From assembly GCF_004121075.1 (NCBI RefSeq), contig NZ_RHLN01000011.1, positions 1 to 64,000 on the forward strand: a stretch of DNA of 64,000 nt, given 5' to 3'. This stretch comes from Lutibacter sp. HS1-25. GTDB lineage: Bacteria > Bacteroidota > Bacteroidia > Flavobacteriales > Flavobacteriaceae. Made by a program: the position numbers and the translations under genes. A model generated the notes under the pieces. The model had not been told where the DNA came from. It saw only the letters and a program-made list of their open reading frames with translations, and made no database searches. Shown one piece after another: positions 1,082 to 52,378 of this stretch (position 1 is the stretch's first letter; every line of letters starts with the position of its first letter).

Positions 1082-1720
1082 ATGAAGGAATTAGACTTAT
1101 TAAAGAAAGATTGGAATAAGCGTACCAACGATTTTCCAAAAGTAACATACAACGATATTTATGCTTTAATTCATAAAAAATCTTCCTCTATTGTAAAATG
1201 GATTTTTGTGATATGCATTGTCGAATTTATTTTTTGGACAAGCTTAAACCTTTTAATACCCGAAAGTTATCTAGATATTTACGAGCAGTTTCATTTAAAA
1301 ACATTTTTACAAATATCACAGGTTGCACACTATATTATATTATCCGTTTTTATTTACCTGTTTTATAAAAACTTCAAATCAATTTCAGTGTGCGATTCTA
1401 CCAACATATTAATGCAAAAAATTATTAAAACACGCAAAACAGTCAATTGTTACGTGTACTACAACATTGTATTATATGTAATTATTTCAGTAGTATTAAA
1501 TGTTATCATGCTTTCTAACCCAACATTATTAATAAATTCATTGGGTTTAAAAATAAAAGATTTAGATCCAGACCTATTTCTCTACTTATACATTGCAATT
1601 CAAACCGCAACACTATTTATTATGTGCGGTTTACTATGGCTATACTACAAAATTATTTATGGTATTTTATTAAAAAAACTCAACAAAAATTATACAGAGT
1701 TAAAAAAAATGGAAGATTAA
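1082..1720 (+). CDS. Four-helix membrane protein paired with the ECF sigma factor
   Basis: A 212-residue protein with a soluble N-terminus of about 38 residues (KELDLLKKDWNKR) followed by four hydrophobic segments, near residues 39-60, 75-97, 123-145 and 160-190, and a basic C-terminus. It starts 2 nt after the sigma factor stop, so the two are surely co-transcribed. In flavobacteria a gene of this shape regularly follows an ECF sigma gene. The position suggests an anti-sigma or membrane-sensing role, but no zinc anti-sigma motif (HxxxCxxC) is present, so that function is inference only. Confidence 0.75.
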   Translation: MKELDLLKKDWNKRTNDFPKVTYNDIYALIHKKSSSIVKWIFVICIVEFIFWTSLNLLIPESYLDIYEQFHLKTFLQISQVAHYIILSVFIYLFYKNFKSISVCDSTNILMQKIIKTRKTVNCYVYYNIVLYVIISVVLNVIMLSNPTLLINSLGLKIKDLDPDLFLYLYIAIQTATLFIMCGLLWLYYKIIYGILLKKLNKNYTELKKMED

Positions 1721-1810: not shown

Positions 1811-1909
1811 TGGGCGCTACCTAAAGGTCGGGCTATACGCTATATCTTTTTTACAATTCCACAAAGTTACATTGTAAAAAAGGATGCCGCTGCTATCCCT
1901 AGCGCAAGT
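1811..1909 (-). ncRNA. Dispersed structured element, copy A
   Basis: Read on the minus strand this segment folds as an outer stem (1900-1905 with 1814-1819, GCGCTA/TAGCGC), a long hairpin (1871-1881 with 1847-1857, 11 perfect pairs) with the 13-nt loop GTAACTTTGTGGA, and a short hairpin near 1819-1828. A second copy at 50962-51076 has the same plan with compensating base changes in the outer stem and distal hairpin. Copy A lies between convergent genes, downstream of the DUF4442 gene. Whether it is a transcribed RNA, a cis element or a mobile repeat is not known. Confidence 0.7.
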
Positions 1910-1993: not shown

Positions 1994-2449
1994 TTAACTT
2001 CGTAACTTTACACTCCATTCAAACTTATATGCAGAAACCTGCTCACCATTTTCATTAACACCAACAGATTTCATAACAATAGTTTGTCCTTCGCCAGTTT
2101 CAATGGTTTTTTGTAAAGCTTCATTTATCAAATCACCATCATTACACGTAAAATTAATTGTCCCAATGGCTTTTTTTGTAAAATCACCAGAGTGACTGGT
2201 AACTAACATCGCTATATTTCTATTGCTTTCCTTAATTTTTTTAATAACCAAAGCGCCTGTAGAAAGTTCGGCAGCCATAGATTGAACAGCAAAATACATA
2301 GACTTAAATGGGTTTGTATTTAGCCATTTATACTTTACGGTAACAACCGCTTTATTGTTATCTATCGTTTTTAACCTAACACCGCACAAATAAGCCGATG
2401 GCAATTTAAACATTAAAAAACGATTCATTTTACTTACAGTAACCTCCAT
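1994..2449 (-). CDS. DUF4442 hotdog-fold protein
   Basis: About 151 residues from the ATG at 2449; a TTG three codons upstream is a less likely start. Its sequence matches the DUF4442 family, which adopts the hotdog fold of acyl-CoA thioesterases: NRFLMFKLPSAYLCGVRL near the start, KYKWLNTNPFKSMYFAVQSM in the middle helix, then a beta-rich C-terminus. Members are cytoplasmic and presumed to act on acyl thioesters, but the substrate has not been assigned to my knowledge. The gene stands alone. The dispersed element copy A lies in its 3' flank. Confidence 0.82.
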   Translation of the reverse strand: MEVTVSKMNRFLMFKLPSAYLCGVRLKTIDNNKAVVTVKYKWLNTNPFKSMYFAVQSMAAELSTGALVIKKIKESNRNIAMLVTSHSGDFTKKAIGTINFTCNDGDLINEALQKTIETGEGQTIVMKSVGVNENGEQVSAYKFEWSVKLRS

Positions 2450-2520
2450 ATTTACCAATTTGAGGTCAATGTATAAAAAGAAAACATATAAATACTCATT
2501 GCTTATTTGTTTTTATCAAC

Positions 2521-21029: not shown

Positions 21030-21112
21030 TTTTAATTAATTATGATAGGGATTATGAATTAAGGCTTTCCTTCGATAATCAAACAATCCTATCGGTTAAA
21101 ATTTATTATTTA

Positions 21113-50921: not shown

Positions 50922-50954
50922 AAACCTAACAGGTTTCTGAAACCTGTTAGGTTT
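50922..50954. repeat. 15-bp perfect palindrome between divergent genes
   Basis: AAACCTAACAGGTTT and its complement are separated by only CTG. It lies between the divergent rhomboid and rarA genes, where no transcript should end, and directly beside the dispersed structured element copy B. It therefore looks like a small palindromic repeat rather than a terminator. Confidence 0.8.
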
Positions 50955-50961
50955 TCAGATT

Positions 50962-51076
50962 GAAACTTTGCGTTAGGGATTGCAGCGGTATCCTTTTTTT
51001 GGTATGTAACAAAGTGGAATACCTAAAAAAGATTTAGCGGAAAGCCCGACACAAATGCAATGTAGTGTAACGCCCA
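50962..51076 (+). ncRNA. Dispersed structured element, copy B
   Basis: Same plan as copy A at 1811-1909 but on the plus strand. Outer stem GCGTTA (50970-50975) with TAACGC (51068-51073); long hairpin (50994-51005 with 51019-51030) closed by GGTAT/ATACC, with the 13-nt loop GTAACAAAGTGGA; then ACAC/GTGT near 51050-51067. Conserved single-stranded segments shared with copy A include GCAGCGG and AAGCCCGAC or its close variant. It ends 28 nt before the rarA ATG and so would be in the rarA leader if transcribed. Confidence 0.7.
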
Positions 51077-51103: not shown

Positions 51104-52378
51104 ATGAATGAACCTTTAGCAGAGCGAATTCGTCCTAAAAATTTAGACGATTATATTAGTCAGCAACATTTGGTTGGAAAAACTGGCGCATTAACGCAAC
51201 ATATTAAGCGTGGTATAATTCCATCGCTTATTTTATGGGGGCCTCCTGGTATTGGAAAAACTACATTGGCAAATATTATTGCCCAAGAATCTAAGCGTCC
51301 GTTTTATTCATTAAGCGCAATCAATTCAGGTGTAAAAGATGTGCGCGATGTTATTGACAAAGCGAAACAAAGTGGCGGCCTATTTACAACAAAAAACCCT
51401 ATTTTGTTTATTGATGAGATTCATAGATTTAGTAAATCACAACAAGATTCGCTGTTAGGAGCCGTTGAAAAAGGTTGGGTTACGTTGATTGGTGCAACTA
51501 CCGAAAATCCGAGTTTTGAAGTAATACCCGCACTACTCTCTCGTTGCCAAGTGTATATTTTAAATTCGTTTAGTAAAATCGATTTAGAGGCCTTGTTAAA
51601 ACGTGCTTTAGAAAAAGATGACATTATATCTAAAAAACAAATTGAAATAAAAGAGACAGAGGCTTTATTACGAATTTCGGGAGGTGATGCTCGTAAATTG
51701 CTCAATATTTTTGAATTGGTAGTGAACTCTGAAGATGAGCCGATAGTAATTACCAACGACTTGGTTTTGGCTAAAATTCAAAAGAATACTGTTTTGTACG
51801 ATAAAACAGGAGAACAACATTACGATATAATTTCGGCTTTTATAAAATCAATCAGGGGAAGTGATCCCAATGGAGCTGTTTATTGGCTGGCTCGCATGAT
51901 TGAAGGCGGAGAAGATGCAAAATTTATTGCAAGAAGGCTGTTAATTTTAGCTTCGGAAGATATAGGAAATGCAAATCCTACAGCTTTGATTTTGGCAAAT
52001 AACACTTTTCAGGCAGTAACAACCATTGGTTTTCCTGAATCTCGCATTATTTTAAGTCAGTGTGCTGTGTATTTGGCTACCTCACCAAAAAGCAACGCTT
52101 CGTATGAAGCTATAGGCAAAGCACAAGCTTTGGTAAAAGAAACAGGCGATTTATCTGTTCCATTGCATTTAAGAAATGCACCAACCAAATTGATGAAAGA
52201 ACTGGATTATGGCAAAAATTATAAATATGCCCATAGTTTTGAAAACAATTTTGCTGAACAAGAGTTTTTACCCGATGAAATAAAAAACACTACATTTTAT
52301 GAACCTGGAAATAATGCTCGCGAAAATAGCTTTAGAGAGTTTTTAAGAAAACTTTGGAAAGGTAAATACGGTTATTAA
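51104..52378 (+). CDS. rarA: Replication-associated recombination protein RarA (MgsA)
   Basis: A 424-residue AAA+ ATPase that acts at stalled replication forks. [20 protein letters not shown] at the start, Walker [21 protein letters not shown], Walker [17 protein letters not shown], sensor 1 [19 protein letters not shown] and sensor 2 [14 protein letters not shown] are all present. The tetramerisation domain ([20 protein letters not shown]) follows in the C-terminal half. Length is canonical. Confidence 0.97.

Follow-up and report, generated by a model that had tools for sequence, protein, structure and literature searches.

Flavo-1 copies in a Lutibacter genome as the probable folded core of a non-autonomous mobile element

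Two folded elements, copy A and copy B, in the window, by which we mean the whole 64,000-nucleotide stretch of Lutibacter sp. HS1-25 DNA that was analysed, are ordinary members of Flavo-1 (RF01705), a known, real and well covarying family. They are two of about 41 dispersed copies in this genome, and they probably represent the folded core of a non-autonomous mobile element rather than regulators of their neighbours. What is new is that in close relatives, probably also Lutibacter, the Flavo-1 core is carried in elements bounded by TIR and TSD, with IS1595 as a named partner family; our analysis thus adds a tested account of this carriage in the relatives, from which we infer the route of the window's own copies. 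In the literature, Flavo-1 has figured as a probable RNA since 2010 (Weinberg et al. 2010, PMC2864571), and a review counts it among the abundant bacterial small RNAs (PMC9029176). Within the portions of the literature that were searched, we found neither a published function for Flavo-1 / RF01705 nor an account of it as MITE cargo, nor papers on MITE with TSD in Flavobacterium or on a link between terminators and MITEs. If Flavo-1 is mobile DNA, the automatic annotation of hundreds of matches as small RNAs is misleading. The same reading, if true, would offer an example on which to study how a structured fold is maintained inside a mobile element, and its proposed partner, the IS1595 family, can be put to the test.

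Identity and covariation of the folded unit

In an Rfam cmscan of the window, copy A matched RF01705 at 60.7 bits (E = 9.2e-11) and copy B at 56.9 bits (E = 9.9e-10), both above the gathering threshold of 42 bits, so that the element itself is not new. The novelty claimed in the original prediction, which had itself named Flavo-1, therefore falls with this match to a described RNA family. The parts of the two copies are as follows.

1814..1905, minus strand: copy A, whole folded element from outer stem to outer stem (sequence; RF01705, 60.7 bits)
1822-1908, minus strand: copy A, Rfam Flavo-1 match (RF01705 model)
1900..1905, minus strand: copy A, 5' arm GCGCTA of the outer stem P1 (sequence; P1 covariation in 37 copies)
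1814..1819, minus strand: copy A, 3' arm TAGCGC of the outer stem P1 (sequence; 37-copy alignment)
1830..1899, minus strand: copy A, long arm P2; its internal loops are rich in purines and its end loop is GTAAC-NNN-GTGGA (sequence; 37-copy alignment)
1853-1857 with 1871-1875, minus strand: copy A, distal stem ACAAT/ATTGT (sequence)
1819..1828 (1819-1822 with 1825-1828), minus strand: copy A, third hairpin P3 ACCT/AGGT (not in the Rfam model)
50970..51073, plus strand: copy B, whole folded element (RF01705, 56.9 bits)
50965-51055, plus strand: copy B, Rfam Flavo-1 match (RF01705 model)
50970-50975 with 51068-51073, plus strand: copy B, outer stem GCGTTA/TAACGC (sequence)
50976..51047, plus strand: copy B, long arm P2 (sequence; 37-copy alignment)
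51049..51068 (51049-51052 with 51065-51068), plus strand: copy B, third hairpin P3 ACAC/GTGT (sequence)

The outer stem, distal stem and third hairpin that had been predicted for both copies are all present, the distal stem of copy B being GGTAT/ATACC, as is the fixed loop GTAAC-NNN-GTGGA, which reads GTAAC-TTT-GTGGA in copy A and GTAAC-AAA-GTGGA in copy B. The covarying unit spans about 90-105 nt and comprises three helices, P1 (GCGTT/AACGC and variants), P2 (the Rfam core) and P3. Thus, the window copies resemble the Rfam family in scoring above its threshold and in having the same P2 arm with its internal loops, whereas the Rfam model of 76 positions is without the outer stem P1 and the hairpin P3. 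The GTTA outer stem and the variable arm also brought an integron attC site to mind, but this was rejected on inspection, since the boxes stand in inverted order and a hairpin is present in excess.

The original prediction that the paired parts differ yet stay complementary holds beyond the two copies, across the genomic family. In an alignment of 37 copies, from which identical copies and the length variants C9:26047, C35:4512 and C25:11563 were excluded, 98.6% of the 1036 cells (28 pairs, 37 copies) were paired, compared to 90.6% after shuffling, and sliding the 3' partners dropped pairing to 35-61%. Two-sided changes were found in 17 of the 28 pairs, amounting to 65 cells versus 12.0 after shuffling, and none of 500 shuffles reached either the observed pairing or the observed two-sided count, which bears out the prediction that the fold is maintained. 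P1 displayed two-sided changes at all 5 modelled pairs, with no G-U cell and one A-C cell, while the distal arm of P2 and P3 vary in length and sequence and are mostly still paired. Moreover, covariation was also observed across 105 distinct copies of two relatives.

Such a strongly maintained fold would suit a trans-acting small RNA family, in which each copy is an independent small RNA gene that is kept since its RNA folds and binds a partner, and the Rfam type of RF01705 is indeed 'Gene; sRNA'; the evidence presented here, in contrast, points to mobile DNA. In two relatives, G001 and G010, G-U cells outnumbered A-C cells (58 vs 16; 26 and 9 when the distal arm is left out), which is what an RNA role of the plus strand would predict. 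However, the two were equal in the window's genome, with G-U in 5 and A-C in 4 of 1036 cells (1 and 2 without the distal arm). The ratio of G-U to the sum of G-U and minor Watson-Crick cells was 0.059 in the window's genome and 0.129 in G001 and G010, relative to 0.147 in 15 tRNAs of the same loci. The predicted folding energy was lower for the plus strand in 31/40, 33/49 and 41/53 copies, and despite this more frequent advantage of the plus strand it is the minus strand that shows more G-U.

Distribution and genomic setting

The search for further genomic copies that had been proposed with the original prediction gave 43 covariance-model matches in the window's genome, 41 of them above threshold; the 43 include two contig-overlap duplicates, leaving 41 copies with distinct flanks. 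A DNA search with copy A alone recovered 38 genomic places including copy A itself (E <=1.6e-14), and copy B, which the covariance model finds, was absent among the places listed for that search. Of 40 genomes examined, counting the window's own, 27 contain Flavo-1, and none of the 14 control genomes gave a match. Within the genus the copy number ranged from 0 to 81 matches per genome, values that are to be read as lower bounds given that 89 candidates were scored per genome; for example, the elements C23, C40 and C82 of G001, a genome of the same genus as the window's, were found by their ends and are absent from the list for G001. G001, G005 and G010 share about 95% identity over one locus of 1.5-1.8 kb. 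Carriage by phages or plasmids was considered and rejected: no phage records were found, plasmids gave one weak match (75% identity over 65% of the query), and IMG/VR contained one contig for one exact pattern.

Crude ORF calls showed no overlap with an ORF of at least 90 aa for 41 of the 43 copies and an overlap for the other two. Thirty-seven copies are flanked by an ORF on each side; the two ORFs converge in 15 cases, diverge in 7 and run in tandem in 15, the tandem cases being almost evenly split in orientation (8 in one and 7 in the other). Because the copies keep no constant position or orientation relative to genes, a conventional riboswitch is disfavoured, in agreement with the original judgement that a simple riboswitch is unlikely, and the fixed upstream position and orientation of a riboswitch or cis-regulatory leader were not seen for copy A either, which lies between convergent genes. 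The neighbours of the two copies are as follows.

585-1079: ECF-type sigma factor gene (sigma-70-type), upstream of the 212-aa ORF
1082..1720, plus strand: 212-aa ORF without Pfam match, converging on copy A (ORF/Pfam)
1994..2458, minus strand: DUF4442 protein gene, converging on copy A from the other side
51104..52378, plus strand: MgsA/RarA-type AAA+ ATPase gene, downstream of copy B

Copy A, situated between the 212-aa ORF and the DUF4442 gene, is missing between the same flanking genes in all four relatives that were measured (G002, G016, G024 and G041), in which these genes are 68-92 bp apart compared to about 290-300 bp in the window. The presence of 43 similar copies in one genome and of none between the flanking genes of copy A in four relatives is unlike the behavior of a small RNA gene, and so is the lack of a fixed position or orientation to genes. 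In addition, according to the one transcriptome study that was found (PMC9723704), Flavo-1 has no consistent orientation to transcripts, the matches in F. psychrophilum being sense or antisense to transcripts and many lying outside them, and for this reason of orientation the study could not explain Flavo-1. We therefore consider a trans-acting small RNA family improbable. Of the two possibilities that had been left side by side in the original prediction, a small RNA family and a mobile structured repeat, the second is the better: the range of copy numbers in the genus and the TIR- and TSD-bounded elements of relatives favor the mobile repeat, while the small RNA is Rfam's label.

The 15 of 37 copies between convergent ORFs would fit a mobile cis-acting 3'-end element (a terminator extension, mRNA stabiliser or insulator) that is retained at its landing site, and so would the terminator-like hairpin that abuts Flavo-1 at the same end in 6 of 7 copies of G036 and 4 of 8 fetched copies of G028. 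However, in the window's genome such hairpins are no commoner on that side (8/43) than on the other (10/43), 7 of the 37 copies lie between divergent ORFs, and the MgsA/RarA-type ATPase gene has its start codon 30 bp past the outer stem of copy B. Likewise, one orthologue of a G028 copy (L274 in G162) looks decayed by eye. Retention of the copies as 3'-end elements thus appears quite unlikely.

Two further features were noticed in the window. A palindrome, AACCTAACAGGTTTCTGAAACCTGTTAGGTT, occupies 50923-50953 and precedes the outer stem of copy B by 16 bp; since similar palindromes flank a RAYT-type gene in G002 (L100), AACCTAACAGGTTTCTGAAACCTGTTAGGTT may be the REP of that RAYT. An S4-Flavobacteria ribosomal protein leader (RF03141, 46.7 bits) was found at 21050-21080 on the minus strand.

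TIR-bounded elements of relatives and the IS1595 family

Several Flavo-1 copies of G001 are nearly identical and are bounded by GGCTAAGTTCTATTTATAACAGCA on one side and the inverted GGCTTAATTCTAATAAGAACAGCA on the other. Analysis of 113 stretches, most of which had been fetched for Flavo-1, revealed 22 distinct TIR pairs, 163-349 bp apart, every one with a Flavo-1 motif inside, including the 8 pairs from loci that had been fetched by TIR alone. The 8-bp direct repeats flanking these elements agreed at 8/8 bases in 10 of the 22 elements and at >=7/8 in 18, compared to 0 and 19, respectively, of 462 mispaired flanks; the remaining four elements match at 5, 4, 2 and 2 of 8 bases. The elements L240, L241 and L245 share one repeat and probably represent one old insertion in three species. 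The target DNA of the relatives' elements is AT-rich. A clean empty site was provided by the comparison of G001 C4 with G010 C32, in which a 179-bp insertion in G001 consists of a 171-bp element plus the TSD AATAATCT, present in two copies around the element and in one copy at the empty site. A second G001 copy (C19) is also missing at its G010 site, with poorer flanks. When up to 3 mismatches were allowed, the TIR occurred at 30 places in G001, 29 in G003 and 3-6 in each of five other genomes, relative to 0-1 matches in each direction for a reversed-pattern control, and at none in the window's genome (G000) or G006. As a separate observation, a short insert in P2 breaks the fold in L240, L244 and L266 (e.g. 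CCTTCGGCTCCGCTCAGGATAAATTCA in L244), and these MITEs retain their ends and 7-8 of 8 bases of the duplication.

A scan of genome contigs with the TIR pattern yielded 39 stretches, three of which place the TIR beside IS1595-type genes of other Bacteroidota. L315 has an IS1595-type transposase gene (PF12762, 40 bits) whose end is overlapped by the TIR, and the opposite end falls outside the contig. In L311, it stands at one end of a 1.07-kb stretch with broken transposase frames that include PF12762 (31 bits), the second end having 7 mismatches and no visible duplication. L306 was assigned by its zinc-ribbon sequence and shows one end only: here the TIR precedes by 20 bp the start of a zinc-ribbon protein resembling the first part of the L311 transposase, and the contig stops short of the place where a PF12762 domain would be expected. 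The IS1016 group within the IS1595 family is reported to have TSDs of 8 bp (PMC10045372). Taken together, the TIRs, the 8-bp TSD and the occurrence of the same ends at IS1595 transposase genes make Flavo-1 in the relatives' clade look like MITE cargo moved in trans. An IS1595-family DDE transposase would move the Flavo-1 MITE, and the cognate IS1595 element would be expected to have the ends GGCTWARTTCTAWWWAKAACAGCA.

A search with the L315 transposase, a 278-aa fragment that was run without a positive control genome against mostly fragmented assemblies, gave no match in G001, G003 and 13 other Flavo-1 genomes, so that the trans-acting step is deduced from the ends and not from a resident enzyme. 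PF12762 was matched in 3 of 11 genomes searched (G001, G006 and G028). The intact IS1595-type gene on C10 of G001 has no convincing TIR nearby, the best matches having 6 mismatches, and seems, by eye, to possess a different inverted repeat. PF01610 (ISL3) gave one match among 6 genomes, in G023. The relatives' elements share with IS1595-family MITEs the TIR pattern, the 8-bp TSD, the length of 163-349 bp and the occurrence of several near-identical copies; unlike a plain IS1595 MITE, their interior is a covarying fold that is also found in copies without such ends, in the window's genome, G028 and G036. Other taxa contain IS1595-type MITEs that have the same ends, other interiors and no Flavo-1 match, so that the MITE may only have captured Flavo-1. 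Two IS1595-type MITEs of a Flavobacteriaceae MAG (L331 3083-3326 and L335 3757-3993) have exact 8-bp duplications and a different long hairpin inside.

In the window's genome, no long conserved flank was seen around the 43 copies, and no direct repeat at a fixed offset stood out among 41 copies when all offset pairs (0-44 left, 0-69 right) were compared with shuffled pairings in eight settings for lengths of 3-9; for 8-mers with 1 mismatch the maximum was 3, versus 2 in each of three shuffles. The copies may be too old to show a target duplication. As these ends and duplications are lacking and no cognate transposase was found, the route of the window's copies is a matter of extrapolation: they could have spread in the same way as those of the relatives, through an older carrier with ends that have since decayed, or by a different mechanism. 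The fold itself would owe its maintenance to a role in the element, at the level of single-stranded DNA or RNA, and not to any importance for the adjacent gene. ERIC, RUP and Correia-type elements are intergenic folded repeats of about 100-150 bp that are thought to be MITE-like, and Flavo-1 is likened to them here by description only.

REP/BIME elements are dispersed intergenic palindromic repeats present in tens of copies, properties shared by Flavo-1, and a REP/BIME-like element moved as single-stranded DNA by a RAYT (Y1, HUH) transposase would be compatible with a folded intergenic repeat that is without TSD in the window's genome. Furthermore, across the 40 genomes a Y1_Tnp match was present in 10 of 10 genomes with >=34 Flavo-1 matches compared to 8 of 30 others. 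As a rule, a RAYT gene has repeats of its own on its flanks. However, Flavo-1 is a three-helix unit and not a short palindrome, and it was not found beside RAYT genes: just one of 22 Y1 loci (L117) had an above-threshold Flavo-1 in its stretch, some stretches ending at contig ends, and this copy is about 2.2 kb from the gene, whereas other palindromes adjoin most of 21 Y1 genes inspected by eye. In addition, the target duplications, where present, are of 8 bp, and HUH transposition is not known to make such duplications. We take the co-occurrence of Y1 genes and Flavo-1 to reflect a general load of mobile DNA, have rejected RAYT/HUH mobilisation as a candidate and regard it as very unlikely. 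The Bacteroidota RAYT-type genes themselves (L056, L057, L098-L114) mostly have, as judged by eye, their own palindrome on one or both sides, e.g. CACGGATTGCAAATCCGCGC and AGTCGGGAGACTTCG, and constitute a set of RAYT/REP pairs.

Other settings of the core and comparison of orthologous sites

While an IS1595-type MITE is the carrier suggested for the relatives, Flavo-1 cores also occur in other contexts. In G036, 6 of the 7 copies form the 3' end of a dispersed repeat about 400 bp long (L218-L224, 6/7 loci), which is interrupted in L224 and carries, close to its start, the inverted repeat AAACACACC...GGTGTGTTT. Since these contexts and those in G028 differ from the MITE, the core has been dispersed in more than one setting.

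The fate of cores at orthologous sites was analysed for 20 G001 copies placed in G010, 17 of which could be compared after omission of 2 sites without the element and of C1:5305, which had a poor left alignment. At 12 of the 17 sites, at least one of the two cores had its orthologue as nearest relative, and at these loci the cores differ at 26 of 1010 positions (2.6%) compared to 6.9% in the left and 5.2% in the right flanks, sums that omit the misaligned left flank of C84 (119/200) and lean towards low core divergence because the loci were chosen for orthologous cores. This lower divergence could reflect a function at the site, as proposed by the 3'-end reading discussed above. However, over 15 script-defined loci the core (92.8% identical) was not better conserved than the right flank (94.0%; left flank, 89.8%).

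At the other 5 of the 17 sites, both cores were closer to copies elsewhere than to each other. The flanks of these replaced loci are clean at C38 (193/200 and 177/200) and fair at C86 and C9 (left 82% and 86%), and at C60 and C26:27007 other sequence breaks up the left flank; six further pairs, with fewer or guessed flanks, were left out of this count. We read the replacement as conversion-like exchange, the other reading being differential loss of nested copies. An extension of this idea, possible though rather unlikely in our estimation, would treat Flavo-1 as a self-maintaining parasitic fold, with a DNA or RNA core that is passed between carriers and exchanged between dispersed sites by conversion-like replacement. 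Its carriers would then be the arms of IS1595-type MITEs in some Lutibacter and the repeat of about 400 bp in G036, with bare copies elsewhere, and the near-strict Watson-Crick covariation in the window's genome would reflect either that both arms are rewritten together or a requirement at the DNA level. At the G001 and G010 loci, P3 seems to act as an insertion site for further palindromic repeats (CCGCCAGCTGGCGG, CCTGCCGGCAGG), which are nested in several layers.
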